A DNA stretch of 64,000 nt from an uncultured Chitinophagaceae bacterium (lineage in GTDB: Bacteria > Bacteroidota > Bacteroidia > Chitinophagales > Chitinophagaceae). The DNA lies in NCBI GenBank assembly GCA_937862815.1, contig CALMED010000012.1:62001-126000 (forward strand), in the 5' to 3' direction. The position numbers were made by a program, and so were the translations under genes. Below are positions 41,622 to 63,931 of this stretch, in pieces (position 1 is the first letter of the stretch; every line of letters begins with the position of its first letter). The notes beneath the pieces are model-generated. The model worked only from the letters and a program-made list of their open reading frames with translations. It was not told the origin of the DNA and searched no databases.

Positions 41622-42635
41622 TCAGCTTTTATGCGGATGCCAGCACTTGCCAAACACCCAGTCTACAGTTATTTGTTGTTCTGTAATTCCTGCCGGTAAC
41701 CGGTTGCGGTACCACTCAAAATCGACTCCGCCGGCTTTACGGCAGCCGGAAAAATAAACGCGGTGTCCCCACTGCAAGGGTGGACCGCTGGGCGCATGGT
41801 ACACCGGCGTATTGGCCATGTTGGCGTCAAACACACAACCAATGAACAACAACTGCGCTTCCCGGTGGTAACGCCCCAACTGAAATCCGTCATAACCTTT
41901 GAACCGGCAGTTGAGCAAAACCGATTTGGCATCGGCATTGCCGGAACCGTCGTGCCATACAATGGCAGTACCCGAATGGGCAATGAAGATGCAGTTTTCG
42001 GCCCAGGCCCAACCACGCGGACAATAGAGATCAACGCTTCCTTCCATGATGCAGTCTTTGAAATACCACATGCCATCAACGGTATTCCAGGGGCTCACAG
42101 TATCGCCGCCGAAGGAACGGAAGTGGCAGTTGATGGCCCGCAGGCGGGTGCAGTTCATGGCCCGCAACGCCATCTGGTGACTGTTACGCCGGATAACTTT
42201 CTTACCGGTACTGTCAGCTGCACAGGTAATTTCGACTTCACCTGTTTGCAAAAAGCCATAAGCATTGGTGATGGTAAGATTGCGCAGGGTGAGATCATTG
42301 GCTCCCACATTCAGGGTTGCCACTCCCCAGTCGTCAGTGTGATTGCAGCGCCAGCTGTCGCGGGCTATAGCGGCAACGATGATGGTGCTGTCGCGGCTCT
42401 CGCCTTCCAGTACTATGTTGGGCTTTTCGATGTACAGCTTTTCGTTGTACACACCGTTGCGGATAAAGATGATAAAACCAATCCGTGTGCTGTCGGGGAT
42501 GCTGTTGATGGCCCCCTGTATGGTGCGGTGATCGCCGCTGCCATCAGGCGCCACCGTTATGACCTGCGAAATCTTTTGTGCCTGCATGGTGAAGCAGCAA
42601 GCCAGCAACGTTTCTATCGTAAACAGCAACTTCAT
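41622..42635 (-). CDS. pectinesterase (CE8 family), divergent motifs
   Basis: A 337-residue exported protein with a signal peptide ending MQAQ and the right-handed beta-helix fold of pectin methylesterases. GSGDHRTIQGAI and RNGVYNEKL (GxYxE) are clear. The active-site motifs are altered: QDTL is GGDTV, DFIFG is VDLYC, and LGRPW is LGRYH, but the two aspartates and the arginine that do catalysis are kept. It should remove methyl esters from homogalacturonan before lyase and GH28 action. The start overlaps the GH105 stop by four bases. Confidence 0.85.
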   Translation of the reverse strand: MKLLFTIETLLACCFTMQAQKISQVITVAPDGSGDHRTIQGAINSIPDSTRIGFIIFIRNGVYNEKLYIEKPNIVLEGESRDSTIIVAAIARDSWRCNHTDDWGVATLNVGANDLTLRNLTITNAYGFLQTGEVEITCAADSTGKKVIRRNSHQMALRAMNCTRLRAINCHFRSFGGDTVSPWNTVDGMWYFKDCIMEGSVDLYCPRGWAWAENCIFIAHSGTAIVWHDGSGNADAKSVLLNCRFKGYDGFQLGRYHREAQLLFIGCVFDANMANTPVYHAPSGPPLQWGHRVYFSGCRKAGGVDFEWYRNRLPAGITEQQITVDWVFGKCWHPHKS

Positions 42636-44551
42636 TTGCGTTTTCCTCCCCGTACCGGTGCCCGTTCCAGCAGCCAGCGCACCAGGTCCCGGGCTGCCGG
42701 GTAATTGTCATATTCTGCCGGCAACTTACGGCCGTCCACATATTCGTTGTACAACCAGGGATCACCAACAGCAAAGACCCACCCCCTGCCCAGCCTCGAA
42801 ACAGCCATAATGGTTTTGCCGCCTTGCTGAATGACCGGGATTGCCGGAGCAGTTGCTTCAATAGAACTGAGTTCTTTGATAAACAAACGGCTGGCAGTTG
42901 GGAAAATGGTATGGCCATGCGGAACGAGAACAGCGCCCTCTTCAAAGCGATCCTGTTTCACCATATTCACCTGATCCGTGTTAAAGCGGATACCAAAGGC
43001 GGAACTGAGCAGGTTGAAGCGCTCAAGCTCGCAGTTACCCGCATCATTGGTCATCATAACCAGCACACCACCGTTTCGCACCCAACGCGAGATAGCCTGC
43101 ACATGTGCCTGCTCCATATAATTGGGGTTCGCCGTTTCTTTTTCGGTATCCGGGTCAACAAGGATGTAAACACCCGCATGGGCGAGCGATGCCGCGGTGG
43201 GCGCAGCAGAAAGGGATTGCAACCGGGCACCGTTCCGTTGAAATAAATGCCCCAGGAAGTGAAAACCGCCATTGCTGCGGTCATCCCAGGTATAGTGCCA
43301 TCGCACCTGGCGGCCGGTGGCATCATTTTTCCATTCGTTGTTGAAATAAGTATCCAGCAAAATGGTCTTACCTATACCCGTGGTGAGCTGCGCCTGCATC
43401 TCCATTTCAGCTGCACACAGTATAAAGGCGCCCATACCCTTGGGGTCGTTCACCACCACCGGCTCGCTCATGTAGTATTCAAAACTGCCATCACGGTAGG
43501 GCTTACCGCCCAGGCCGGATACGGCTACCGTTCCTTTCAGATTGATGGCACCTCCCGGGGCCTCTTCCACAAAGGTTTGCAGAATGCCCCTGTATGCCAG
43601 GGCAGCATCAGCCGCATAATCCGCGGGAATGTACCCTAACCTGCTGGCCTTGGCGAAAGTATACGCCAGCATACAGGAAGCCGATGCTTCGGGGTAGTTG
43701 CCTTTTCGCTGCGGAAGATCCGGAATGTCGTACCAGAGGCCGGTGGCAGGATCCTGTACTTTTCGTACCGCCACCACAAACCGCCGGAGGATGCGCAACA
43801 GTTCGGCCCGGCGGGGATGCTGTGCGGGAAAATAATCCAGCACGTCCACCAGCGCCATACCAAACCAGCCGAGGCTGCGGGCCCACACATGCGGACTGCG
43901 GCCCGTGGTTTTATCGGCCCAGCGCTGTTCCCGGCTTTCATCCCAGCCGTGGTACAGTAAACCCGTTTTGGGATCACGGGCATATTGCTCTATCAGGACA
44001 AACTGGCGGGCAATATCATTAAACGCCGAATCTTCGTGAAACAGTTGTGCATACTCCGCATAAAAGGGCTGGGCCATGTAAAGGCCATCGAGCCACATCT
44101 GGTGCGGATAAATGTTTTTATGCCAGAAGCCACCGGCAGAAGTGCGGGGATGGGTGATTAACTGCCGGCGCAACGCATCGGCTGCTTTTTTGTATTTGTC
44201 GCGGCCGGTAACCCGGTAAAGTGTAAGTAATAACTTTCCGTTGTTGATGTGATCAATATTATACTCATCGGGTTTGTATCCTTTGACAGCTCCGTTGTCG
44301 CTCACATAAAAATCCATGCTGCGCCGGATGTACTCAAACCATTTTCCTTCACCGGTGGCCAGCCATACCTGCTCCACTCCTTTCAGTACCACGCCCTGGT
44401 CGTAGCGCCATTTGGCGGTTTTGTCCTGTTCCAGCAGAAACGAATCGGGCCATATCTGCATGGCTCGCAGTGCGAGGCGCTGGCTGTGCGGCTGTGCAGC
44501 TGCCAGCAGCGAAAAACCGAAGGATAATATGATCAGGCAACTGCGCATCAT
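42632..44551 (-). CDS. GH105 unsaturated uronyl hydrolase with a C-terminal DUF4350-like domain
   Basis: A 639-residue exported protein, signal peptide ending LLAAAQ. Residues about 22-390 are the (alpha/alpha)6 barrel of GH88/GH105 hydrolases (YteR/YesR type); the presumed catalytic aspartate is D155 in HQMWLDGLYMA, with HVWARSLGWFGMA and YPEASASCMLAY further on. The enzyme removes the unsaturated uronate left by pectate lyases. The last 245 residues are an additional domain (ILLDTYFNNEWK, later GGVLVMMTNDAGNCE and VFAVGDPWLYNEY) that looks like a DUF4350/class-I-amidotransferase-like fold with unknown role. Overlaps both neighbours by 4 bases. Confidence 0.9.
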   Translation of the reverse strand: MMRSCLIILSFGFSLLAAAQPHSQRLALRAMQIWPDSFLLEQDKTAKWRYDQGVVLKGVEQVWLATGEGKWFEYIRRSMDFYVSDNGAVKGYKPDEYNIDHINNGKLLLTLYRVTGRDKYKKAADALRRQLITHPRTSAGGFWHKNIYPHQMWLDGLYMAQPFYAEYAQLFHEDSAFNDIARQFVLIEQYARDPKTGLLYHGWDESREQRWADKTTGRSPHVWARSLGWFGMALVDVLDYFPAQHPRRAELLRILRRFVVAVRKVQDPATGLWYDIPDLPQRKGNYPEASASCMLAYTFAKASRLGYIPADYAADAALAYRGILQTFVEEAPGGAINLKGTVAVSGLGGKPYRDGSFEYYMSEPVVVNDPKGMGAFILCAAEMEMQAQLTTGIGKTILLDTYFNNEWKNDATGRQVRWHYTWDDRSNGGFHFLGHLFQRNGARLQSLSAAPTAASLAHAGVYILVDPDTEKETANPNYMEQAHVQAISRWVRNGGVLVMMTNDAGNCELERFNLLSSAFGIRFNTDQVNMVKQDRFEEGAVLVPHGHTIFPTASRLFIKELSSIEATAPAIPVIQQGGKTIMAVSRLGRGWVFAVGDPWLYNEYVDGRKLPAEYDNYPAARDLVRWLLERAPVRGGKRK

Positions 44552-46197
44552 TGTTCCCAGTTTACTTCGCCGGCAACGGCCCCTAATTCGTATGTGATGG
44601 GGGTGGTCGCATGGGCTGCATTGGTTTTGCGCAGGGTGATTTTTTTCGTACGGTCGCCGTTGATGCGGAACAGCTGCACCGCACCGTTTGTGTAACGGAT
44701 GTTCTCAAACAACAGGTTATCACTCTGCACCACGTCAATCACCGGGCTGGTTTCTTTGGTATAAATGGCGATGTTACGGAAGGTGATGTTGCTGGCTTCC
44801 TGCACATCCATGCCGTGCTTCGCCTGCAGCACCATGTTTTCCAGTACAATATTTTTCACGTGCATCTCAGGGATACCCCGCACAAAAATGCCCTTTTCGG
44901 CACCGTTACAGTACACGTTGCTGATATGGAAATTGCGGAATACCGGTGTGGTTTCATTTACGGGCAGGAATTCCACTTGGGGCAACGCCCGCTGTTCGCC
45001 CGCCAGCGGAATGGGATCCCGGGCTGCATAATACATATCAAACAGGATGGCTTCGCCCGGTATATCTTTCATGTAGATATCACGGATAAAAATATTTTCC
45101 ACCACGCCACCCCTGCCGCGGGTGGTTTTGAAACGCAGCCCGATATCTGCACCTATAAAGGTGCAGTTACTCACATAAATGTTGCGGGCACCACCGCTCA
45201 TCTCGCTGCCAATCACAAATCCGCCATGCGATGCATAAACGGTGCAGTTACGGATCACAACGTTTTGCGTAGGCATCCCCCGCTTCCGTCCTTCGGCGTC
45301 GCGGCCGCTTTTGATGCAGAGCGCATCATCACCCACGTCAAACACCGAATTTTCAATCAGCACATTGCTGCAGCTTTCCACATCAATGCCATCACCGTTT
45401 TGTGCATACCAGGGATTTTTAACGGTGATGTTCCGCACCGTTATGTGCTCGCTCATGAGCGGGTGCAGGCACCAGGCAGGCGAGTTTTGAAAAGTAACCC
45501 CCTGCAGCAATACAAATCTGCAGCGTGTCAGCAGCAGCAGGTTGGGCCGCAGAAAGTCTTTGATACTGTCGTAAAAAGCCGCATCTTTTTCCGGCGAAAT
45601 GACACCGGGGTTGTTCATGCCCGCGCCTTTGCGTGACGCTTCGGAGGGATACCAGGTTTTTTTGTCATCACTCAACACACCGCCGGATGCCAGCAGTTTC
45701 TTCCACTGGCTTTCGGTGAGCTTATCTTTTTTTACCATGCGCCAGGCATCGCCGTTGCCATCAATAATACCCCGGCCGGTGATGGCAATATGCGAGGCAT
45801 TGGTGGCGGAGATGGGCGACTGGTTGCGCATTTGAGGCAACCCCTCCCAGTTAGCAGCCACCAGGGGGTACTGACTTTTATCTGCTGTAAATAACAACGT
45901 AGCTCCTGCCGCGAGGTGCAGGTTGATGCGGCTTTTGAGCTCTATGGGACCGGTGAGCCACAGGCCAGCCGGCACCAGTACAACGCCACCTCCTTTTTGA
46001 TGCAACTGGTCAATGGCCCGCTGGATGGATCTGGTATTAAGTATATGCCCATCGGGTACGGCCCCCGTACGGGCTATTGAAAGCGTATCTTTCCTGAAAA
46101 CGGGTTGCTGTACTACGGGCAGGCGGTTCCATTGCGCCTGGGCAACAAAGGAAAACAAGAGGACAAAAACCGCAAGAAAGTGGGTTCGTTTTATCAT
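44548..46197 (-). CDS. GH28 polygalacturonase
   Basis: A 549-residue exported beta-helix enzyme, signal peptide ending FVAQAQ. GH28 motifs are present in order: NGDGIDVESC (for NTD), VGDDALCIKSG (DD plus the serine), SHGGFVIGSEMSGG (GHG region) and IGLRFKTTRGRGG (RIK as RFK). The aspartates that form the catalytic triad are retained. It releases galacturonate from homogalacturonan ends; exo-activity is likely from the extra N-terminal segment but not certain. It overlaps the GH105 gene by 4 bases. The 136 bases upstream hold a hairpin and a possible promoter. Confidence 0.94.
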   Translation of the reverse strand: MIKRTHFLAVFVLLFSFVAQAQWNRLPVVQQPVFRKDTLSIARTGAVPDGHILNTRSIQRAIDQLHQKGGGVVLVPAGLWLTGPIELKSRINLHLAAGATLLFTADKSQYPLVAANWEGLPQMRNQSPISATNASHIAITGRGIIDGNGDAWRMVKKDKLTESQWKKLLASGGVLSDDKKTWYPSEASRKGAGMNNPGVISPEKDAAFYDSIKDFLRPNLLLLTRCRFVLLQGVTFQNSPAWCLHPLMSEHITVRNITVKNPWYAQNGDGIDVESCSNVLIENSVFDVGDDALCIKSGRDAEGRKRGMPTQNVVIRNCTVYASHGGFVIGSEMSGGARNIYVSNCTFIGADIGLRFKTTRGRGGVVENIFIRDIYMKDIPGEAILFDMYYAARDPIPLAGEQRALPQVEFLPVNETTPVFRNFHISNVYCNGAEKGIFVRGIPEMHVKNIVLENMVLQAKHGMDVQEASNITFRNIAIYTKETSPVIDVVQSDNLLFENIRYTNGAVQLFRINGDRTKKITLRKTNAAHATTPITYELGAVAGEVNWEQ

Positions 46198-46769: not shown

Positions 46770-48347
46770 TTAGCGTGTTTCTGCTATAAAACGGTGCAGG
46801 TCGGCATAACCTGCATCATTTGTGGCTTTTGAACGCACTGCAAACAACCCGAGCCGGGCCCCCACCCATACACCCGGCCGGGCGGTAAAGGGTTGCCCGA
46901 TTGCTTGATAGCTGCTCCCGTTTTCGCTGAAATAAAACCGGCAAACAGCACCTGCCGCAACCCGTACCTGCAAATAGAACCGGCTGTTTCCTGCCGGCAG
47001 CCGGGCAATCTCCCGTTCACGGCCGCCTTTATCGGCATCCCTGCAGATCATCTGCCGCAGCACCATCCCTTCCGGAGATTGTTCCAGCTCCAGCGTGGCA
47101 TAATCCCGGCCGGTTATGATCAGACCAAACCTTTCGCCGGTTGTATGCGGACGTATATCCAGGGTGGCTGTAGCCGTGAACTCCTCTGCGGGAAACATCC
47201 GTGATAAAATGTTGGGCGTCATCCATAGTGAATGCAAACTGTCGGGCTGCTGTCGGGCATACAATCTGATCCCCCCGGCAGAAAGGAGGAAGCCCCATCC
47301 TTCGCCGGGATTGGCCGCCCACTGCCAGGTCAGTGGCCAGGATGCTCGACCCGTCTGCTCCGGTTCCCGGAGACCGGTCTGCCGGTTGCCGGGGTGCGGC
47401 AACTGAAACTGCTGCACGGGCTGCCCCGCTTCGCCCATCACGGGCCAGTCGTTTTGCCAACGCATGGGCTGCAGGTGTAATATCCGGCCATAAGCTCCCT
47501 TATCCTGAAAATGCAGGAACCAATCCGCTCCGGCTGGTGTTTGGACCCAGGCTCCCTGGTGCGGACCGTTGATCCTGGAAGTCCCCTGATGAAGCACCAC
47601 TTTTCGTTCATACGGCCCGTAAACAGAACGGGAACGCAGGGCCAGTTGCCAGCCGTTGGTTACCCCACCGGCCGGCGCAAAGATGTAATAGTAGCCGTTG
47701 CGCTTGTACAATTTGGGCCCTTCAACCGTGGGGTCGCTGGTTCCGCCATCATACACCAGCACCGGTGCACCGGTAACTGACTTACAGCCGGGATCCATCT
47801 CCCGCACTACCAGGATTGATTTAATACCGGCCCTGCTGCCCGCGTAAGCATGCACCAGGTACGCTTTACCGTTGTTGTCCCAGAACGGACAGGGATCAAT
47901 CAATCCTTTGCCGGGAAGCAACAGGAAAGGTTCGCTCCAGGGACCGCGGATATCGGACGCCGTTATGATATAAATGCCAAAGTCGGGATCAGGAAAAAAA
48001 ATGTAGAAAAGTCCGTTGTGATGCCGGATCGCCGGCGCCCATACACCACCCCCGTGCTGCACAGTGCGGTAATGCTCTTCGGGTACCAGGCGTTGCAGGG
48101 CATACCCAATCAACTCCCATTGTACGAGGTCTTTTGAATGCAAGACCGGCAAGCCGGGTACGTGATTAAAGCTGGAAGCAACCATGTAATAATCATCCCC
48201 CACCCGTATGGCATCGGGGTCGCTGTAATCTGCATGCACGATCGGGTTGCGGTAAGAACCGGCCAGTGGTTGCGCACCGATCTTTCCTGTACCGGCCAGC
48301 AGGAAAAAGAGTAAAAGGCAGTATCGTACAACACGCTGCACAGCCAC
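46770..48347 (-). CDS. GH43 family glycoside hydrolase (beta-xylosidase/arabinofuranosidase type)
   Basis: A 525-residue exported enzyme, signal peptide ending GKIGAQ. It starts at GTG (GTG GCT GTG CAG), since no ATG is near. The five-blade propeller has DYSDPDAIRVGDDYY (catalytic base), LIDPCPFWDNNGKAY, and VEGPKLYKRNGYYYI (catalytic acid). From about residue 300 a second beta-sandwich domain of the GH43 C-terminal concanavalin type follows. Expected to remove arabinose or xylose from pectin side chains; subfamily and linkage cannot be set without search. It starts 6 bases after the porV stop. Confidence 0.9.
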   Translation of the reverse strand: MAVQRVVRYCLLLFFLLAGTGKIGAQPLAGSYRNPIVHADYSDPDAIRVGDDYYMVASSFNHVPGLPVLHSKDLVQWELIGYALQRLVPEEHYRTVQHGGGVWAPAIRHHNGLFYIFFPDPDFGIYIITASDIRGPWSEPFLLLPGKGLIDPCPFWDNNGKAYLVHAYAGSRAGIKSILVVREMDPGCKSVTGAPVLVYDGGTSDPTVEGPKLYKRNGYYYIFAPAGGVTNGWQLALRSRSVYGPYERKVVLHQGTSRINGPHQGAWVQTPAGADWFLHFQDKGAYGRILHLQPMRWQNDWPVMGEAGQPVQQFQLPHPGNRQTGLREPEQTGRASWPLTWQWAANPGEGWGFLLSAGGIRLYARQQPDSLHSLWMTPNILSRMFPAEEFTATATLDIRPHTTGERFGLIITGRDYATLELEQSPEGMVLRQMICRDADKGGREREIARLPAGNSRFYLQVRVAAGAVCRFYFSENGSSYQAIGQPFTARPGVWVGARLGLFAVRSKATNDAGYADLHRFIAETR

Positions 48348-48353
48348 TCAGTT

Positions 48354-49487
48354 TCAGTTTTCCCCACCCAGGTCAAAGAGGATGCTGAAGCGGGTGGTGT
48401 TGCTCAGCGGGTTGCGGTTGATGCCCTGGCCCGTGGGTACCAGGTACGAGAAGTTAAAGCCCAGCTTGTTGTACTTCACGCCCAGGCCCGCGCTGAAAAA
48501 GCGGCGGTTGCCCTTCGTACGCGCCTCGTGGAAATAACCTGCACGTGCGAAAAACAGGTCGCTGTAGTTGTATTCCATCCCCGTGGAGATCTGGAACTCC
48601 TTGAGTTCTTCACCAAAACCGCCGGGTGCATCTCCAAACGACGAAAACCAGCTGCTGATCACGCTCTTGTTGCGGTAGGCGTCCAGCGCCTCCGGCGAGC
48701 GGCTCGTGGGGGGCGTGGGTACCAGCAGTTTGTTGATGTCCACCCCAAAGCTCAGCTTGCTGGTCTCGTCCAGCACCGCGTGGTACATGGCACCGATGCC
48801 CAGGTTGGCCGGGATGTAGTCGCGACCCCGTGCGTCGTTGGTGTACGATATCTTGCTGCCCAGGTTGCTCATCACCGCACCGGCTGTAAAGCCCTGGCCG
48901 TTTTCGTTGATGCCGTTGTAATAGAACGACAGGTCACCCGCCACCGCGGTACCGGGTTTGTAGGTCACCCCGTTGGTATTGCCGTTGGCCAGGTTGGAAT
49001 AGATGAAGCGCAGCGCCACGCCCACCCCGATCTTGTCGCTGAGGCTACGGCTGTAGCCGGCGTCGAGCGACCATTCCCGCGGGCGGAACGACTGCAGGTC
49101 GTTGCCGGCAAAATCGGTGAACTGGATATTACCCAGGTTGAAGTACCGCAGTGAGGCCGAGATGGCCTGCCCTTCGGCAAACTGGTGGTAGCCGGCAGCC
49201 GTTACGATGTACACGTCGTTCAACCCCAAATCCTTGAGCCAGGGGGTATAGGTGATACCGATGGCCGAATTCTGGGTGGCAAAGGGAATCTTAGCCTGGT
49301 TCCAGAACGAGGCGTTGGCATCGGCCGTGGTGGCAATGCCCAGGTCGCCCATCCCGCCCGAACGGGCGTCGGGTGAAATGCGGAGCATGGGAACGGCGGT
49401 GGTAACTACATTTATCGAATCATTCTGTGCAAACAGAAAGAGACCCGGAAGCAGAAACGTCAGGAGCAATGCTGTTTGTTTTTTCAT
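48354..49487 (-). CDS. porV: PorV-family protein of the type IX secretion system
   Basis: A 377-residue outer membrane beta-barrel with signal peptide ending LFLFAQ. It shows the PorV/LptO signature DARSGGMGDLGIATTADANA, then FWNQAKIPF and ITYTPWLKDLGLND, with many paired beta strands after. PorV binds C-terminal signals of T9SS cargo at the outer-membrane translocon and delivers them to the PorU sortase. Here it lies inside a pectin locus that encodes one T9SS-tagged lyase, and overlaps the alpha/beta hydrolase gene by 4 bases. Whether it is the cell's main PorV or a dedicated extra copy cannot be decided from this window. Confidence 0.92.
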   Translation of the reverse strand: MKKQTALLLTFLLPGLFLFAQNDSINVVTTAVPMLRISPDARSGGMGDLGIATTADANASFWNQAKIPFATQNSAIGITYTPWLKDLGLNDVYIVTAAGYHQFAEGQAISASLRYFNLGNIQFTDFAGNDLQSFRPREWSLDAGYSRSLSDKIGVGVALRFIYSNLANGNTNGVTYKPGTAVAGDLSFYYNGINENGQGFTAGAVMSNLGSKISYTNDARGRDYIPANLGIGAMYHAVLDETSKLSFGVDINKLLVPTPPTSRSPEALDAYRNKSVISSWFSSFGDAPGGFGEELKEFQISTGMEYNYSDLFFARAGYFHEARTKGNRRFFSAGLGVKYNKLGFNFSYLVPTGQGINRNPLSNTTRFSILFDLGGEN

Positions 49488-50551
49488 GTGAATGCGGGTT
49501 TTTGTTGGTACAATGCTGGATTGTTATATGGTAAAAAAATATTTCCGGGTATAAAAAAGGAGTGGTTGCGCTGCTGAGTGACAAATACATGTTGCAGAAA
49601 TTCATCCGTCACCTGCACAACGGTATCGAGCCAGGGCTGAAACAACGCGAAACTGTGGGGAGCCCTTTCCAGTTGCATTACGCGGCTGTAAATACCAAAG
49701 CGGTTGAGCTCCTGTATAAAGTCGTCCTGCCCGGCCCGCATACGGGGTACACTGCTGTTGAAAAAGAGAAACGGGGGCGTGTGGGCTCCCACGTGTGTGA
49801 GCGGAGAAGCTTCCTGCCACAGGTCCGGACGCAGATGCTTCGGGTAACCGAACCAGTAAGTGGCTGCCGAGGTACGCAGACTGTCATTCCCTTCGCCCGA
49901 CTCCGGATGCAGGAAGGCCAGGATACCATCCATGTTCACCACCGCCTGCACAAGGCCGGATGCTGTGGTTGTGCAGGATGTTTTTTCAAACACCGGCAAA
50001 CCGTTGGTTGCACCTGCCAATGCCGCCAGCTGGCCACCGGCTGAATGACCTGCAATGACGATGCGCTGCGGATCTACCTGCATGGAAGCCGCATTGGCCC
50101 GTACCCATTGCACGGCTGCCTTCACATCCAGCACCGCTGCCGGATACAAGGCATGGGTGGAGAGCCGGTATTCAGGTGTAAAGCAGGTGTATCCTTTTAT
50201 GGCGAGGCAGGCCGCCATGGGTTGCAGCAAGGTTTTATCACCACTGCGCCATCCACCTCCATGCAGCAGGATCAAAGCAATACCATTTGCCGTTGTGCCG
50301 GCAGCCGGTTGAAACACATCGAGCCGCAGGGAGATGTTGCCGGTGCTGCAGTAAGAAATATCTTTCTGCATACGGAAACTCCCTGCATCGGGATAGACGG
50401 GCAATTGCAACCGGGGATACTGTGGCAGGATCTTCCGGTACTCGCGCTGCAGCGAATAGGTAGTATCGGTAACATACGTACGTCCATCCACCAGCTGCGC
50501 ATGCAGTTGCAAGGCACTACCAATCAGTCCTATGGTCAGGAACAAACGCAT
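49484..50551 (-). CDS. alpha/beta-hydrolase esterase, pectin acetylesterase-like
   Basis: A 355-residue exported hydrolase, signal peptide ending ALQLHAQ. It has the hormone-sensitive-lipase-like oxyanion motif ILLHGGGW near residue 92 and the nucleophile elbow GHSAGGQLAALAG; the catalytic histidine is likely in RAPHSFALF near the C-terminus. The acetyl-esterase (BD-FAE-like) family in such loci removes acetyl or feruloyl groups from hemicellulose or pectin. Its exact substrate is inferred from the neighbourhood. Four bases after the SGNH esterase gene stop and overlapping porV. Confidence 0.85.
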   Translation of the reverse strand: MRLFLTIGLIGSALQLHAQLVDGRTYVTDTTYSLQREYRKILPQYPRLQLPVYPDAGSFRMQKDISYCSTGNISLRLDVFQPAAGTTANGIALILLHGGGWRSGDKTLLQPMAACLAIKGYTCFTPEYRLSTHALYPAAVLDVKAAVQWVRANAASMQVDPQRIVIAGHSAGGQLAALAGATNGLPVFEKTSCTTTASGLVQAVVNMDGILAFLHPESGEGNDSLRTSAATYWFGYPKHLRPDLWQEASPLTHVGAHTPPFLFFNSSVPRMRAGQDDFIQELNRFGIYSRVMQLERAPHSFALFQPWLDTVVQVTDEFLQHVFVTQQRNHSFFIPGNIFLPYNNPALYQQKPAFT

Positions 50552-50555
50552 CGGT

Positions 50556-51305
50556 TCAGGTTAAACGTTTTACCAGGTGTTTCAGCAGAGGTACCTGCAG
50601 GCGCTGCATTTCCTGCAGTACCAACTGGGCAATGAGCCGGGCACCCAGTTCATTAAAGTGGGTATTGTCGGTCTTTCCGTCCGGATAGTTGGGATGTTCA
50701 CCGGGCTGCAGATGTAAAAACAACAGTCGGGAGGTCTCCGCTCCCAACCGCTGGAACAACTCCCTGCTCCGGGTATCGAGGTCAAGCAGATACACTTGCT
50801 CCTCTGTTGCTACTTCCCGAACCATCCGGCTGTAGGGGATATGTGTTTCCAGGGCGTTACCGCCGGCATCAAATCGCCGGCGCGACACCGGTGTGAGCAG
50901 TACAGGGATCGCCTTCTTCATTTTTGCTTCCTGCACGAAGCGCTGCAGGTTGAGGCGGAATGTGTCGGGAGGAGCATAGCGCTCCTGTTTTTCCACCGAT
51001 TCATCGTTATGACCAAACTGAATGAAAACATAATCACCGGGACCTGCCGCATCCAGGATGGATTGCCAGAGACCCTCGCTGCGGAACGTTTTGGTACTGC
51101 GCCCGTTTTTCGCCCGGTTAACGACCTGCACGGTGCTGTCCCAGAAATGAACAAAAGGCATACCCCAGCCTGTTTCCGGGAAGGCACGGGCTTCTTTGCT
51201 GCTCATGGTGGAGTCGCCCGCCAGGAAAACCGTGATTTTCTTTTGCGGCGGCAGGTGAAAGCTCATGGCACCGAGCAGAAGTAGGCAGTACAGCTTTTTT
51301 TGCAT
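50556..51305 (-). CDS. rhamnogalacturonan acetylesterase-like SGNH hydrolase (CE12 type)
   Basis: A 249-residue exported SGNH hydrolase, signal peptide about residues 1-20. The four blocks are visible: GDSTMSSKE (serine), NRAKNGRSTKTF (Gly/Asn block), IQFGHNDESV (GxND) and DNTHFNELGA (DxxH). This is the pattern of rhamnogalacturonan acetylesterases (RGAE, CE12). It would remove acetyl groups from the rhamnogalacturonan or homogalacturonan backbone. The start codon lies directly after the U-tract of a strong terminator hairpin, so its translation initiation region overlaps that structure. Confidence 0.92.
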   Translation of the reverse strand: MQKKLYCLLLLGAMSFHLPPQKKITVFLAGDSTMSSKEARAFPETGWGMPFVHFWDSTVQVVNRAKNGRSTKTFRSEGLWQSILDAAGPGDYVFIQFGHNDESVEKQERYAPPDTFRLNLQRFVQEAKMKKAIPVLLTPVSRRRFDAGGNALETHIPYSRMVREVATEEQVYLLDLDTRSRELFQRLGAETSRLLFLHLQPGEHPNYPDGKTDNTHFNELGARLIAQLVLQEMQRLQVPLLKHLVKRLT

Positions 51306-51308
51306 ACC

Positions 51309-51343
51309 AAAAAAGCTGGTATCCCCCCAAGGGGGATACCAGC
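51309..51343 (-). terminator. strong terminator-like hairpin inside the pectin operon
   Basis: A perfect 13-base stem GCTGGTATCCCCC/GGGGGATACCAGC with a 3-base loop, followed on the minus strand by TTTTTT, with the SGNH esterase ATG three bases further. It lies 8 bases after the stop of the giant pectate lyase. By sequence it is one of the best intrinsic terminators in the window, though it is inside the operon. Confidence 0.85.
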
Positions 51344-51351
51344 CTGTGATT

Positions 51352-57394: not shown

Positions 57395-58855
57395 TTACGG
57401 TTTTTTTTCAGAAATTTTTGGAGAGGAAACAATGCTGTTGATATAAACCTCAATGTTGGTGTAATGGGGATGCAGTTGATGTTCTGCGGCATCATACCGG
57501 TTCAGCGGATTGAGCCCGTGTTGCTGTTCCCAGTCGTCGGGCATACCATCCGCATCCGCATCGGAAGGTGGCGACTGCCTGTTCAGGTAGGGCCAGGCCA
57601 CCCGGGATTGTTCGTAAGATGTACCGTGCGGAAATCCGCCCTGTACATCTATAATGCGACCGGCGCTATTCTTTACATCCCGTATGATTCGTGCATCCAG
57701 GGTGTCGCGCCGCCAGCTGGCGCCTGCATGCTGCAGTACGGCAGTAAACGCGTCAGTTGCATCTTGCAGTTGTACAGGACCGGCAGGGAAAGGTTGGGCC
57801 ACCACAGCCTCCTGCTTTTCAGCGGGAGAAGCTTTTCCCCCCATCTCAACTCCCAGCCAGTTATTGCGGCTGATATCCAGGGCCCCGTCCATCACATTAC
57901 CGGCCACATAAAACCGGCCAAAGCCCACATCACCGGTACGGGTGGGGTTGACAATGCGGCGCCGTACCTGCGCTGCAGTGGAGGGCCCAGGTTTGTAATA
58001 ATTATTTACGATATTGTATGTACCTCCCTCACCCCCGTAAACGTTGTTGTGTCCCCAGTTATAGATTACGTTGTTGCAGAAGTCAACAAAATCCTGAACG
58101 GCACCCAGTCGTGCCCCGTTGAAGCGGGGCGTCCGGCTGGCGCAATGAGCAAATAAGTTATGATGGGCGCTGAGATGTGCCCCGCCCCAGATAGCACCGA
58201 AGCCGTGCTTTTGCCAGTCGGTATCCCCTTCTTCAAAATGATAGGAGTAATTGAGCGGTTCGCTGATGATGTTCCATTGGATGGTGCTGCTGTCGCCTCC
58301 GTACAGGGAAAAAACCTCATCCGTGCTCCAGCTCATGCTGCAATGGTCTACTATCAGGTGCTTGTACCGGTTACCGCCAAATGCATCGTCGCTGCCACTG
58401 CCGGGCACTTTGCCTTTGAGCGACTGGTAGCGGTCGCCCATGCGGAAACGCAGGAAGCGTACAATGATGTTATTCCCCCCCAGGCTCACAGGCTGATCGG
58501 CCAGGCAGATGCCGTCGCCGGGGGCTGTTTGTCCGGCGATGGTGGCGTTACCTTTGATGACAAGCGGACTATTCAGATGGATGGTTCCCGAAACGGAAAA
58601 AACGATGATCCGGGGCTGATTACGGGTGGCTGCTTCCCGGAAGCTGCCGGGCCCGTTATCGTTCAGGTTGCTTACAACCAACACCATGCCTCCCCTTCCA
58701 CCTGATGCATAACGTCCGAACCCCTCCGCCTCCGGAAATGCAAGCGGCAAATCAGAAGGCGGCGAACCATTCACGATACGCATACGGGCACAAGCCGGCA
58801 ACTGCAAGAACAATGCTGCAGAAAGCATCAACGGTATGGCTGCAAACAATCGCAT
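57395..58855 (-). CDS. pectate lyase, PL1 family
   Basis: A 486-residue exported lyase with an N-terminal signal (MRLFAAIPLMLSAALFLQL) ending in a possible lipobox (PAC). It opens LAFPEAEGFGRYASGGRGG, a pattern typical of Bacteroidota PL1 lyases. The beta-helix core carries VDHCSMSWSTDEV (calcium site) and RTPRFNG (likely catalytic arginine). The C-terminal part includes the DADADGMPDDWEQQHGL calcium-binding, thrombospondin-3-like element. It lacks a T9SS signal, so it probably stays in the periplasm or is surface lipidated, unlike the neighbouring giant PL1 protein. Confidence 0.92.
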   Translation of the reverse strand: MRLFAAIPLMLSAALFLQLPACARMRIVNGSPPSDLPLAFPEAEGFGRYASGGRGGMVLVVSNLNDNGPGSFREAATRNQPRIIVFSVSGTIHLNSPLVIKGNATIAGQTAPGDGICLADQPVSLGGNNIIVRFLRFRMGDRYQSLKGKVPGSGSDDAFGGNRYKHLIVDHCSMSWSTDEVFSLYGGDSSTIQWNIISEPLNYSYHFEEGDTDWQKHGFGAIWGGAHLSAHHNLFAHCASRTPRFNGARLGAVQDFVDFCNNVIYNWGHNNVYGGEGGTYNIVNNYYKPGPSTAAQVRRRIVNPTRTGDVGFGRFYVAGNVMDGALDISRNNWLGVEMGGKASPAEKQEAVVAQPFPAGPVQLQDATDAFTAVLQHAGASWRRDTLDARIIRDVKNSAGRIIDVQGGFPHGTSYEQSRVAWPYLNRQSPPSDADADGMPDDWEQQHGLNPLNRYDAAEHQLHPHYTNIEVYINSIVSSPKISEKKP

Positions 58856-58865
58856 TAAACATAAA

Positions 58866-58898
58866 CAACCGGCAGGGAGGTTGGGGCCGTGCCGGTTG
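58866..58898 (-). terminator. hairpin between susD and the pectate lyase genes
   Basis: CAACCGGCA (58866-58874) pairs perfectly with TGCCGGTTG (58890-58898) around a 15-base loop; on the minus strand TTTATGTTTAATG follows and includes the next start region. The T tract is interrupted, so it is more likely a partial attenuator or a 3'-end stabiliser of the susCD message than a full terminator. Confidence 0.5.
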
Positions 58899-58913
58899 TG
58901 AAGTTATTTTTTA

Positions 58914-60698
58914 TTAGTAGTTCGGATTTTGCACCAGGTTGGGATTGGCATCCAGCGAAGCTTGCGGCAGTGGCAGCAACTCGCTCTTACCAGGTGTAAA
59001 GCCGATGGCGTAAAAAGTTAGTATAGTGGTATTGATGTTGCTGCGTACCCAGTTTACACGCGTGTTCCCGGCTGGAGTGCCGGTCCCAAACGGGTTGGGG
59101 TTGTAAAAGGAAATGATCCAGTTGGGGCCCAGGGTATTGGTTTGAAACAACATGTATTCGGGATACTGATTATAGGGTGCAAGGCGGCTCGACATGGCCG
59201 TGAGAATCGTACGGGTTTCCGCCAGTTTGGTGCCAAGCAGGTTCCAGCGTATGAGATCGTACTTGCGGATTCCTTCCCCGCCCAGTTCGAGGGCACGTTC
59301 CCGCACAATGGCGTCAAAAAATGTGTTGTAGGTGCCGGGTGTGGTACCAATTAATGAAGCATTACCGCCGTACGCACGGAGACGAACCTGTTCCAGTGCA
59401 TTGCGGGCTCCTGGGGTGGGACCGTTGTTCAGTTCATTTTCCGCCTCGGCAAACATCAGCAACACGTCGCTGAAGCGCACTACCGGCCAGTTAACACCAT
59501 ACCATTGCGGCCCCAGGGTTAGAGCGCCGGGAATCCAGTCGCGGCGAAACTTGCCGTCCAGCATCAATTCCAGGCCGCGGCCGGTGCGGGACGTAATGGT
59601 GGTACCAGTGGCATTGACGAAGTAAGGAGCACACATTACATCACGCCTGCTGTCCGTGCTGTCAAACATGTAAAAATAGTTGGGGAGCACGGTGAGAGCC
59701 GAGTTACCATTATTATTCACACGGGGGCCGTTGTAGTATCCGAGTTTACTATCGCCGAGGGCACTGTTGGCGCCACCCATACCAATTTCGAAAATAATTT
59801 CTCCAAATGGATCGGGTTGCTTACCGCATACATAATCGCGGAATACCGATTCAAAAGAAGTATTCAGGCGATGTTGATCCGGGCGGTTCATGATAACAGC
59901 ACACTCGTCGCGGGCAATCTGGTAGTACTTCCGGTGGTCGCTTCCCCGCTGCATGGTGCCATTCTGGCGCAGCGACCAACCGCCCCGGAAGAGGGCGATC
60001 CGGGCACGCAAAGCACGGGCGCCACCTTGTGTGATGCGCTCATTGCGGGATACTTCGGTGCGCCAGGGCAATAAAGTAGCGGCAAGCGCAAGGTCTTCGA
60101 GTAAAACATCGTAGATGGAATCGCGGTCGGTTCTGCGTTTAAATAGATTGGTCTCCTGGGAAGAAGGCTGAAACTGGGCCGGCACATCCCCCCAGTTACG
60201 GATCAACTCCTGGTAAAAGAGCGCCCGCAATGTCAGCGCTTCCCCATGCAATCGGCGTAAGGCAGCTTTTTCCTGGGCGGTACCGTTGTCGTACTGGGTC
60301 ATCCGCGGAATATTGTAAATGCAGATGTTAGCCCGCTCAATGCCATTGTAAAACTGGTTGAAGGGGGCCGGCAGCTGGGTATTGTTGGCATTGAGTGTGA
60401 AGTGGGCAATATCCCTCCGTTCATTATCGGGAAAGGGAGTACCTCCCTGCCCCATCATGATATCATCATCATAGGGATAATACATACTCACACGAATACC
60501 ATATCCGTTATCGCCGGTCAGCCGGTAGTAAACACCTATCACCGCTTTTTCAGCATTCACTACATTGCTGAAAACGTAGTCGGTGCCAAAGGAGGAAACA
60601 GGTTCTATTGTCAGAAATCGCTTACAGGAGGTGATCCCTACCGCGAGCAACACAGCCAGGATGAAATATGTTACAGTTGACAGCAATCGGGTTTTCAT
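58914..60698 (-). CDS. susD: SusD/RagB-family outer membrane lipoprotein
   Basis: A 594-residue surface glycan-binding lipoprotein. The signal ends with lipobox ITSC, followed by KRFLTIEPVSSFGTDY. TPR-like helical features of SusD are seen: NAEKAVIGVYYRL, FYNGIERANICIYNI, RLHGEALTLRALFYQELIRNWGDVP and, near the C-terminus, VRFSDVLLMFAEAENELN and RERALELGGEGIRKYDLIRW. It caps the SusC barrel and feeds pectin oligosaccharides into it. The gene starts 23 bases after susC. Ligand identity comes from the surrounding enzymes. Confidence 0.96.
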   Translation of the reverse strand: MKTRLLSTVTYFILAVLLAVGITSCKRFLTIEPVSSFGTDYVFSNVVNAEKAVIGVYYRLTGDNGYGIRVSMYYPYDDDIMMGQGGTPFPDNERRDIAHFTLNANNTQLPAPFNQFYNGIERANICIYNIPRMTQYDNGTAQEKAALRRLHGEALTLRALFYQELIRNWGDVPAQFQPSSQETNLFKRRTDRDSIYDVLLEDLALAATLLPWRTEVSRNERITQGGARALRARIALFRGGWSLRQNGTMQRGSDHRKYYQIARDECAVIMNRPDQHRLNTSFESVFRDYVCGKQPDPFGEIIFEIGMGGANSALGDSKLGYYNGPRVNNNGNSALTVLPNYFYMFDSTDSRRDVMCAPYFVNATGTTITSRTGRGLELMLDGKFRRDWIPGALTLGPQWYGVNWPVVRFSDVLLMFAEAENELNNGPTPGARNALEQVRLRAYGGNASLIGTTPGTYNTFFDAIVRERALELGGEGIRKYDLIRWNLLGTKLAETRTILTAMSSRLAPYNQYPEYMLFQTNTLGPNWIISFYNPNPFGTGTPAGNTRVNWVRSNINTTILTFYAIGFTPGKSELLPLPQASLDANPNLVQNPNY

Positions 60699-60721: not shown

Positions 60722-63700
60722 TCAGAACGAGAAATTAAGGCCAAAAATGAACGAACGGCTGCGGGGGTAGGCCGAATAATCAACACCGGGAGTTTCCGGT
60801 GTGCGTCGCCGGGTGCTTACTTCGGGGTCGTAGCCCGAATAGCGGGTGAATACCGCCAGGTTATTCACCGTAAAATAAGCTCTTGCTTTTTGAATTTTCA
60901 GGTTACCAAATGCTTTGGCAGGAATGGTATACCCCAGGGTTACGTTATTGATGCGAACAAAAGAGCCATCTTCCACCGCCCAGGAATGCAGGACAAATGA
61001 GTTACTGCTGGTGCTGGGTTGCCAAAGGGTGGCATTGGCGTTTAATTTAGCCAGTGCAGCGGGATCGGTAACCACTGCACCGTTTTCATCCACCCGGCGC
61101 CAGCGGTTGTTCATGATGCTGAGCATGTTGGCATTGGTCTGGTAACCGGAGGTAAACTCCAGCTTGTTGGCATTGTAAACATCATTGCCAAACTGGTAAT
61201 TTATGAAGATGCTCATATCAAAGTTTTTGTAACTGAACATCTGGTTCAGGCCACCAAATACTTTGGGTTGCGCCACGCCGACAATGCTACGATCAAGGTC
61301 GTTCACTACACCATCGCCATTCAGGTCCTTAAATTTGAGCGTGCCGGGCTGGGGCGGCTGCATCACGCTGGCGTTACTGGGTACACCGGAGCGGAGGGTG
61401 TACACACCGGTAATTGAATTGTAATCAAAATCAGACAGCTGGTAAAAACCATCGGTAACGTACCCCCACATGGCTCCTACCGGGCTACCCCTGCGGACGA
61501 TGTAGTCGGCTGGGGTATTCGAAAAACCCCAGCCGGAGTTACGCAGGTAAAAGTCCTGGAATGAACCCAGGCTCGTAACGCGGTTGCGGTTCATGCTGGC
61601 ATTAAAGTTGACCGTCCAGTTAAACTTGCGCCGGTTCAGCACTTCGGCATTCAGCTGTAGCTCAATGCCCCGGTTTTCGGTACTGCCCACATTCTGAATC
61701 TGTGTAACCCATCCGCTGGTGGTAGGAATGGGAACATCAACGAGAAGGTCGCGGGTCGTATTCTGGTACAAGTCGATGGACAATTGCAATTTGTTGGACA
61801 GAAACCCTAGGTCGATGCCAATATTCCTGGAAATGGTGGTTTCCCAGATCAGGCTTTCATTTGCCAGTGCTTCGGGCGCAAAACCACCTACCAGCTGGTT
61901 GTTAATCCAGTACTGTGTGGCGGAATTAAACTGGGTAAGGAAAAGGAAATCACCGATGCGGTTGTTGCCGGCCTCGCCGTAACTCACCCGCACTTTGAGA
62001 TCGCTGACCGTATTGCGGATCTTCTCAAAGAATTTTTCATTGGATACCCGCCAGGCCACCGAACCGGAAGGGAAATAACCCCATTGCTTCCCTTCGGCAA
62101 ACTTGGTGGACCCATCGGCCCGCAAACTGAATGCGGTGAGGAAGCGGCCATCGTAATCGTAGTTCAACCGGCCAAAAAAGGAGGCAATGCGGTTTTCGGT
62201 TTCGAAAGTTGGCGGACGGCTGTTATCGAGGAAGGGAGTTCCGAGATTCATATTGGCCAAAGCCTTGCGGGGATCAATACCCACAGGAAAATCGCGACCC
62301 AGGATGTTCTGCGTATTCGTTCGGGAAACAAATACTTCCTGCCCGGCAATTGCTATGATGCGGTTCTTCTTGTGAAAGTCTCCTTTCAACTTTGAGTTAT
62401 TAAACGTAAACACATTGGAGTTATTTATAATAGCCCGCCTTGTATTACTGATGGAAGCAAGCGGGTTACCTCCTCCGTTCAGCCGTGCGTTTCCTGTAAT
62501 GGTATCATCAAAGGCGGTTTGACGGTTGAGATTGATATCATAACCGATCGTGGTACGGAAGCTGAGAAAATTCGTGAGCTTGTAATCCACAAAACCACTC
62601 AGATTAATGACATCCAGGTAATTACGGCGGTACTCAGCTTCGTTAAGCAGGATGGGGTTTACCAGCCCCAGGCTGTTGGCGTTGGTCTGGTTGTTATAAT
62701 CGGCATCAAAATCATCGAGGTCCTGACCGGGTAACAGCAGAGGACGGAACTTTACACTGTGGCGCAAACGGTTGGTGGAAGATGAGCCGGGAGTAGACGT
62801 GCCGGCGCCGTTTACCACCGTATTGTTATAGCGGGTGTTAAAGCCCACCTTCAACTTACTGCTGACGTTGTGATCGAGTTTAAAGTTCACCAGTTTACGG
62901 TCAAAGTCGCTGAGCCGCATCACGCCTTCTTCGCGGTTGCTGGTAAGACTCAGGTTGTAGTTGGTACTGGCATTTCCGCCTGCCATGCTTACGTTGTGTG
63001 TCTGAAACAGTGCCCGGCGGCCAAACATAATATCCTGCCAGTCAACAAAAGGAACATTTTTGAAATTCTGCAATGTATCCCAGCTGGAGCCATACTGGCG
63101 GGCAAAATTACCGCTGTCGGTAGCGTTTCCGCGGCTGCGCTCCCACTGATAGGTTACAAAATCGTACGGATTCATCAGATCCAGCCGGTTGGCCACTTTG
63201 TTAAAGCCAAACAACCCGTTGTAGCTAACGGTGGTTTTTTGGTTTTTTCCCCCTTTGGTGGTGATGATGACCACCCCATTGGCGCCCCGTGCACCATAAA
63301 TGGCCGTTGCGGAAGCGTCTTTCAGCACATCTACTGATTCAATATCCTGCGGGGAAATAACGTTGAGAGCATTTTCCACCTGTACACCATCTATGATGTA
63401 TAAGGGTGAGTTGTCCTGGGTAATAGACCCGCCACCGCGTACACGGATGAGCACTTCGGCGTTGGGAGTACCTTCCGTACCGGTAATCTGTACACCGGCC
63501 AGCCGACCCGCAAGGGCCTGCGCCGCGGAGTTAATGGGTATATCGCGGAGTTGCTTGGCACTTACGGATGATACCGACCCGGTAAGGTCTTTCCGCTTAA
63601 CGGTTGCGTAACCGATCACCACCACTTCATCACCCGAAGTAGCGGCTGGCTCCATTGAAACAGTCATTGTTTCCACACCGGTTGTGGTAATTGTTTGCGG

Positions 63701-63931
63701 TTTGTACCCAACCGAACTGAAAAGTAATATCGGATTGCCGGCTACCCGGATGGAGAAGTTCCCATCTTTATCACTGGTGGTACCCGACTTACTGCCGGAA
63801 GGAATGATGCTGACACCGGCCAGGGGAGCGCCGGTATCATCGGTCACCTTACCCGTAATGGTGCGGGTTTGAGCAAATAACCAGGCAGGAAGCAAAAGAA
63901 CACACATCAGGATCAAAGCAAGCTTTCTCAT
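60722..63931 (-). CDS. susC: SusC/RagA-family TonB-dependent receptor
   Basis: A 1069-residue outer membrane importer, signal peptide ending AWLFAQ. Residues about 23-100 form the carboxypeptidase-regulatory-like domain (ITGKVTDDTGAPLAGVSI); a TonB-box-like stretch DEVVVIGYATVKRKDLTG precedes the plug (about 115-240) containing GRLAGVQITGTEG and PLYIIDGVQVE, the RagA signature. The rest is a 22-strand barrel ending in the aromatic FIFGLNFSF. It moves pectin oligosaccharides to the periplasm with TonB energy. It is the first gene of the pectin run; only 69 bases upstream are inside the window and contain no clear promoter. Confidence 0.97.
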   Translation of the reverse strand: MRKLALILMCVLLLPAWLFAQTRTITGKVTDDTGAPLAGVSIIPSGSKSGTTSDKDGNFSIRVAGNPILLFSSVGYKPQTITTTGVETMTVSMEPAATSGDEVVVIGYATVKRKDLTGSVSSVSAKQLRDIPINSAAQALAGRLAGVQITGTEGTPNAEVLIRVRGGGSITQDNSPLYIIDGVQVENALNVISPQDIESVDVLKDASATAIYGARGANGVVIITTKGGKNQKTTVSYNGLFGFNKVANRLDLMNPYDFVTYQWERSRGNATDSGNFARQYGSSWDTLQNFKNVPFVDWQDIMFGRRALFQTHNVSMAGGNASTNYNLSLTSNREEGVMRLSDFDRKLVNFKLDHNVSSKLKVGFNTRYNNTVVNGAGTSTPGSSSTNRLRHSVKFRPLLLPGQDLDDFDADYNNQTNANSLGLVNPILLNEAEYRRNYLDVINLSGFVDYKLTNFLSFRTTIGYDINLNRQTAFDDTITGNARLNGGGNPLASISNTRRAIINNSNVFTFNNSKLKGDFHKKNRIIAIAGQEVFVSRTNTQNILGRDFPVGIDPRKALANMNLGTPFLDNSRPPTFETENRIASFFGRLNYDYDGRFLTAFSLRADGSTKFAEGKQWGYFPSGSVAWRVSNEKFFEKIRNTVSDLKVRVSYGEAGNNRIGDFLFLTQFNSATQYWINNQLVGGFAPEALANESLIWETTISRNIGIDLGFLSNKLQLSIDLYQNTTRDLLVDVPIPTTSGWVTQIQNVGSTENRGIELQLNAEVLNRRKFNWTVNFNASMNRNRVTSLGSFQDFYLRNSGWGFSNTPADYIVRRGSPVGAMWGYVTDGFYQLSDFDYNSITGVYTLRSGVPSNASVMQPPQPGTLKFKDLNGDGVVNDLDRSIVGVAQPKVFGGLNQMFSYKNFDMSIFINYQFGNDVYNANKLEFTSGYQTNANMLSIMNNRWRRVDENGAVVTDPAALAKLNANATLWQPSTSSNSFVLHSWAVEDGSFVRINNVTLGYTIPAKAFGNLKIQKARAYFTVNNLAVFTRYSGYDPEVSTRRRTPETPGVDYSAYPRSRSFIFGLNFSF

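Follow-up and report, generated by a model that had tools for sequence, protein, structure and literature searches.

A second, intact copy of porV, the gene for the outer-membrane shuttle of the type IX secretion system (T9SS), lies within a pectin operon of a Chitinophagaceae bacterium, in addition to the canonical copy found elsewhere in the same genome. The reading favored here, to which a probability of roughly 0.6 is attached, is that this gene is an inserted, lineage-specific duplicate of the ordinary porV which has been kept alike by gene conversion, and which would provide the general type A shuttle in a second dose under operon control. The host genus is probably Lacibacter, since the PorV loci of its near relatives come from Lacibacter cauensis, L. 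luteus, or Chitinophagaceae metagenome-assembled genomes. The operon and its porV copy are set out in Table 1 in coordinates of the window, i.e., the whole 64,000-bp stretch of DNA that was analyzed.

The pectin-locus porV and its operon

The porV frame is read on the minus strand, the plus strand of 48354-49487 being interrupted by stops, and its translation is a 377-aa protein with GGMGDLGIATTADANA. It was assigned to PorV rather than to the PorQ or PorV2 family, scoring 442.7 bits against the NCBIfam PorV equivalog NF033710 (cut-off 250), relative to 75.4 bits for the PorQ model and 22.6 bits for PorVQ2, each below its own cut-off. The protein also matched the Pfam PorV family PF19572 (8.3e-53) and the solved PorV of Flavobacterium johnsoniae (PDB 6h3i_F; 1.6e-68), and an NCBIfam search at 0.001 gave no match to TIGR03519, the model for the PorP/SprF type B shuttle. 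The first-pass annotation had described a complete PorV with an intact signature, overlapping an esterase gene by four bases and followed by a GH43 gene, and this description is borne out: an ATGA overlap (49484-49487) joins porV to the upstream alpha/beta-hydrolase esterase gene, and a 6-bp spacer separates it from GH43.

Table 1. Features of the pectin operon and of its porV copy, in window coordinates.
Feature	Position	Strand	Basis
Pectinesterase	41622..42635	-	Pfam
GH88	42632..44551	-	Pfam
GH28	44548..46197	-	Pfam
GH43	46770..48347	-	Pfam
Second porV copy, intact, 377 aa	48354..49487	-	Minus-strand translation; NCBIfam and Pfam matches
Tract identical to canonical porV, 713 bp	48394..49106	-	Alignment; recent gene conversion inferred
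Diverged porV 5' third, 30 differences, almost all synonymous	49107..49432	-	Alignment; dS/dN
Signal-peptide codons, unlike canonical (39 of 72 aligned bases), about as unlike as those of congeners	49425..49487	-	Alignment
Alpha/beta-hydrolase esterase (BD-FAE), C-terminus 22-32 aa longer than congener matches	49484..50551	-	Pfam; congener alignments
GDSL esterase	50556..51305	-	Pfam
Terminator-like hairpin at the lyase / GDSL-esterase-porV junction	51313..51345	-	Fold vs. shuffles
Pectate lyase with T9SS type A sorting domain, putative cargo, 2012 aa	51352..57390	-	Pfam; TIGR04183
Pectate lyase, PelZ-like (match under model cut-off)	57395..58855	-	NCBIfam
SusD-like protein; homologues in congener pectin loci	58914..60698	-	Named by reading the sequence
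SusC-like TonB-dependent receptor; homologues in congener pectin loci	60722..63931	-	Named by reading the sequence

The run from SusC (63931) through GH43 is encoded entirely on one strand, and neighboring genes are spaced by -4 to 58 bp. Diverging from SusC is a gene for a LacI-family regulator (L179:712-1734; best NCBIfam matches of the CytR/RbsR type, below cut-offs), an arrangement that would fit substrate control. A second GH43-like gene (L179:1737-3428) is also found just upstream of the pectin SusC.

The same run was said to encode a 2012-residue lyase with a T9SS sorting domain, and the analysis confirmed this. The giant lyase measures 2047 aa if translation starts at the first ATG and 2012 aa if it starts at an inner one. 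It carries a Pectate_lyase_4 domain (Pfam), and at 0.01 it matched a single NCBIfam model, TIGR04183 for type A sorting domains, with 31.6 bits for the whole protein and 36.1 bits in the genome search (cut-off 23). The lyase gene is three genes upstream of porV and does not adjoin it; the gene directly upstream, i.e., the esterase, is without Por_Secre_tail in Pfam and without TIGR04183 in NCBIfam. A strong hairpin follows the lyase gene (51345-51313; -30.7 kcal/mol, z -6.0, followed by T residues), with none of 200 shuffles equally stable, so that a single, even transcript of lyase and porV is not assured. A second stable hairpin lies between the SusD and PelZ-like lyase genes (58856-58913; z -4.5). 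These individual folds alone stand out, unlike the results of scans for consensus promoters and terminators, which gave no clear excess over shuffles (15 vs. 12.1; 23 vs. 20.6).

The overlap between esterase and porV looks like a by-product of porV insertion, since the esterase frame overshoots its congener ends by 22-32 residues: all seven congener matches (three of them aligned) stop at query residues 323-333 of 355. The window esterase frame probably now reads through what was once a leader.

Two distinct PorVs in the genome

Full-length PorV matches occur at three places in the genome, namely the window and contigs C5 and C7, together with four weaker places of partial coverage (E 8e-5 to 0.014). 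The C5 and C7 porV loci are identical reverse complements over 4125 bp, as are the contig ends and two inner 1-kb pieces, and a three-copy genome was rejected, C5 and C7 being one sequence assembled twice. The distinct PorVs number two: the window copy and a canonical copy (G000:C7:44021-45145) that comes after PorU and near GldJ, both named from their sequences; the homologue of that PorU in congener G008 was confirmed by NF033707. The genome-wide search for other porV copies, which the first-pass annotation had called for, thus recovered a second, canonical gene, and the notion that the pectin-locus gene is the genome's only PorV was rejected.

The duplication concerns a 206-kb contig, whose two versions (C5/C7; L002, L003, L009-L012, L180-L183) were exact reverse complements wherever they were compared, and the 8.5% contamination stated for the genome may stem from it. 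Contigs C10 and C19 hold sorting-domain (CTD) matches of equal score and may be another duplicated pair. About 57 sorting-domain places are present in the genome (68 matches minus 11 on the duplicate contig C7).

Divergence and apparent gene conversion

The window and canonical PorVs are 97% identical, with a single difference (residue 73, N vs. Q) across the 355 mature positions from residue 21 to 375; the last residues also differ. At the DNA level, identity from codon 19 is 96.6% over 1072 bp, and the 36 differences are unevenly spread: 30 fall in the first 326 bp, followed by 713 identical bases and then six differences at the end. For each of three site models (any site, third positions, and sites variable in the genus), 200,000 permutations failed to produce an identical run of this length. 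Codons 21-129 gave a dS of 0.417 and a dN of 0.012, whereas codons 130-363 have zero differences. Beyond the shared stretch the two loci differ, with ungapped identities of 0.27 over 200 bp upstream and 0.22 downstream, and the window leader agrees with its canonical counterpart at 20 of 59 aligned positions, a level attributed to chance. An identical tract with diverged ends is the expected mark of gene conversion between two functional, selected copies, and we infer such conversion here; the denser 5' edge of differences suggests more than one event.

An assembly artefact could, in principle, produce the same picture if a repeat had been collapsed in this draft genome, which already contains one 206-kb contig twice, C5 and C7 being the same at every point tested; the tract also exceeds short-read length. 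The chance of this is slim, however: differences at both gene ends join porV to the pectin locus, the surrounding gene order agrees with that of congeners, the window and the C7 stretch agree in tetranucleotide make-up (0.966), and a collapse would have required near-identical true copies anyway.

The 5' thirds of the two copies are sisters (0.987; 15 sequences), and both have high GC3 values (0.75 and 0.84) relative to 0.24-0.49 in 13 congeners; the copy therefore appears to have evolved in this high-GC lineage or in one very like it. Transfer from a sampled low-GC congener was rejected on GC3. Acquisition from an unsampled high-GC relative, with later conversion by the resident porV, is distinctly unlikely. 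In signal peptide and leader, the window copy does stand as far from the resident one as other congeners do (39 of 72 and 20 of 59 aligned bases, respectively), but in the 5' third the two are sisters, both with high GC3, and no donor is known. The first-pass annotation had proposed a PorV tree; in a quick maximum-likelihood tree of 116 rows, the window copy pairs with its canonical counterpart from the same genome (98), inside the genus, and does not group with divergent paralogues. The GC content is 54% in the window and 56% in the C7 stretch (L008) vs. 40-43% in five congener stretches (L076, L077, L079, L080, L086), a large gap within one genus. The GroEL of the window genome is nearest to those of G007 and G013 (96 and 95%), both of which are 2.4-Mb genomes.

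Pectin loci of congeners

Each of the 13 congeners has one PorV (E 1e-60), so that the second copy is present in one of 14 genomes of the genus. When 13 congener stretches (L076-L088) were searched with the window proteins, PorV was found only in L080, the canonical locus of G008. Four of the stretches (L076-L079) hold both the esterase and GH43, with other genes in between and PorV absent. The interval contains in each case a hydrolase-like gene as well as, adjoining GH43, a Gfo/Idh-like gene; some have further genes, e.g., a pectinesterase-like gene in L076 and L077, all identified by eye or by match.

The presence of the copy in a single genome of the genus, with other genes at the corresponding place in its congeners, would also suit a neutral, transient duplicate that has no selected role. 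This explanation is considered unlikely, as the frame is intact, with tight spacing on both sides, and the unconverted part has a dN/dS of about 0.03, although the same value would be expected if the divergence had arisen in another species prior to acquisition.

Large pectinases with TIGR04183 above cut-off (35.1-43.4 bits) are encoded in five congener pectin loci (L079, L081, L085, L086, L087), and the genomes of all five have a single PorV apiece. These enzymes do not correspond one-to-one to the window lyase, since they give pectinesterase-like catalytic matches, with a PelZ-like part as well in L079. Type A pectinases of the pectin locus thus appear not to need a PorV of their own.

This bears directly on the proposal of the first-pass annotation that the window PorV is a dedicated, substrate-induced shuttle for the giant lyase. 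The induction half of that proposal is plausible, because the gene sits in a pectin operon in the same-strand run as a type A cargo, and cargo-PorV pairs are common among the extra PorV genes of the family (see below). Dedication to the lyase, by contrast, is very unlikely: the mature protein differs from the general shuttle by one substitution in 355 residues, a 713-bp tract identical to canonical porV indicates homogenization, a hairpin and two genes separate the lyase from PorV, and the five congeners manage with one PorV each. Given the near-identity and the single-PorV congeners with type A pectinases, cargo specialization of the window copy is unlikely.

The favored reading of a converted duplicate of the general shuttle can be set out as follows. 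A duplicate of the ordinary PorV gene would have been inserted between the esterase and GH43 genes in the pectin operon of a high-GC species; both copies would have stayed under purifying selection, with repeated ectopic gene conversion keeping the mature shuttle the same. Whenever the pectin genes are switched on, including the sorting-domain lyase, the supply of PorV would be raised, and, since the window PorV is nearly the same protein as the canonical one, it should serve any type A cargo in the same way. Co-induction with pectin and a dosage benefit would accompany gene conversion as parts of this proposal. Counting against it, the hairpin may separate the expression of PorV from that of the lyase, and the lyase is one cargo among the roughly 57 sorting-domain places. 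In addition, Paillat et al. inferred that PorV is produced in excess or recycled in F. johnsoniae (PMC12618676), in which case extra dosage would be needless.

Cargo-PorV pairs in the Chitinophagaceae

A broader idea of the first-pass annotation, that PorV paralogues may be specialized by cargo, was pursued in 394 genomes of the family, 358 of which had a PorV at E 1e-80. From these, 42 genomes other than that of the window (G000) with at least two PorVs were picked by eye (101 matches at E 1e-60), and an "extra" PorV was defined as a non-best match of its genome, giving 59 genes at 57 loci. This definition is not always right, L090 being a GldJ-side canonical copy, and 58 of the genes entered the tree as paralogues; best copies were fetched with wide flanks in three cases only (L146-L148).

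Same-strand genes lie no more than 170 bp upstream of 57 of the 59 extra PorVs, and 44 of these 57 neighbors (28 of 34 plus 16 of 23) match TIGR04183, the type A T9SS sorting domain. Pfam Por_Secre_tail was found in 24 of the same 34 upstream proteins, as compared with four of 32 downstream neighbors. In control proteins (the longest gene of at least 300 aa, at least two genes away from PorV, one per locus), TIGR04183 occurred in at most two of 56 and was absent from the 25 families listed. A local CTD model, trained on 44 upstream proteins longer than 600 aa and hence circular for those 44, called 53 of the 57 upstream proteins, including nine of 13 short ones outside the training set. Elsewhere it called six of 52 downstream neighbors, 15 of 383 other genes, and one of 54 other genes of at least 600 aa; by this model, 55 of the 59 extra PorVs have a CTD neighbor on one side or the other. 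The model is weak, however, missing the PorU CTDs (L166, L176) and four of the five congener pectinases found by TIGR04183.

The paralogues fall into several divergent groups in the 116-row tree, where many long branches leave the number of origins unsure. Across 53 pairs, PorV and CTD distances are correlated (r 0.82 overall; 0.51 among PorVs below 60% identity), a level that 2000 permutations never reached. In 42 of the 53, the closest CTD is the partner of one of the three closest PorVs. This correlation would fit joint inheritance, which explains it as well as co-adaptation does. In two loci, L132 and L134, a unit of a short CTD protein and PorV is repeated in tandem, and the two PorVs of L134 are identical.

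The window GH28, GH43, GH88, pectinesterase, esterase, and GDSL proteins had no match among the called genes of the 57 extra-PorV loci (E 1e-8), which gave a pectate-lyase match in one (30% identity), SusC in 12, and SusD in two. Outside the family, a class sample of 396 genomes provided 15 with a second PorV-family match, and TIGR04183 (NCBIfam) was found in none of the 10 upstream proteins scanned. Likewise, the local CTD model, weak as it is in missing PorU CTDs, called none of the neighbors of 21 PorV-like frames outside the family. Cargo pairing is, as far as tested, a feature of the extra PorVs of the Chitinophagaceae. One of the ten scanned proteins belongs to the PorP/SprF family, its gene (L177:5956-6915) lying directly upstream of one of the PorV family, and another genome of the class has a single cluster with two PorU-like genes and three PorV-like ones (L164).

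The wider idea of cargo-PorV pairs fares better than the example that inspired it. Pairs do exist as a family pattern, whereas the window copy does not show its features: it has not diverged from canonical PorV (97% identity), and it has an esterase gene, rather than a type A gene, directly upstream. It is tempting to suggest, with somewhat less than even confidence, that PorV is not one universal type A shuttle; divergent Chitinophagaceae paralogues inherited with a type A cargo gene might act as dedicated shuttles, as PorP/SprF proteins do for type B, and the pectin copy might then be a newborn pair held back by gene conversion.

Significance and comparison with known systems

PorV takes type A cargo from the SprA translocon to the PorU complex, according to PMC9143113, PMC10202324, and PMC12618676. 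As stated by Paillat et al. (PMC12618676), type A CTDs are all recognized by PorV, while type B substrates have dedicated shuttles. It is this view of one PorV for all type A cargo that the cargo-PorV pairs could put to the test. Type A cargo-paired PorVs were not found described in the portions of the open-licence literature consulted, which included PMC10994853, PMC8564354, PMC12618676, PMC9143113, and PMC10202324. The pairs offer a direct, swappable test of private shuttles in type A sorting, and the presence of a further PorV among pectin genes suggests a possible adjustment of secretion capacity to diet. Setting the putatively conversion-held copies beside the diverged, cargo-side copies of relatives would show the states before and after the specialization of a general secretion component.

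Relative to the PorV of the T9SS, the outer-membrane shuttle for type A CTD cargo, the window copy belongs to the same family and is almost identical to its genome's own canonical protein. It is unlike the usual PorV in its position within a pectin operon rather than beside PorU, in being a second copy, in its other signal peptide, and in its identical inner tract. Relative to the congener pectin loci of the SusC/SusD type (L076-L079, L085-L088), the window has the same order of GH43, DUF4440, GH28, and GH88, likewise with SusC/SusD, PL, GDSL, and esterase genes where present; L076-L079 differ in that other genes, and not PorV, separate the esterase from GH43.

The canonical PorU-PorV neighborhood likewise has a CTD gene immediately ahead of PorV, since PorU itself carries a type A-like CTD (26.1 bits for TIGR04183 vs. 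the cut-off of 23 in G008). The cargo partners of the extra PorVs differ in not being PorU; no sortase model was found among the families listed for the upstream partners (25 of 28 families in one scan and all 7 in the other).

Finally, PorP/SprF shuttles are encoded directly downstream of their type B CTD cargo, as set out in PMC12618676, PMC9143113, and PMC10202324. The pectin-locus PorV and its lyase do not form such a type B pair, the former having no TIGR03519 match and the latter matching the type A model; nor does the window copy adjoin its putative cargo. The extra PorVs of the Chitinophagaceae, by comparison, share with PorP/SprF the logic of a shuttle encoded beside its cargo, but they do so with a different protein family and a different CTD type, i.e., PorV and type A.
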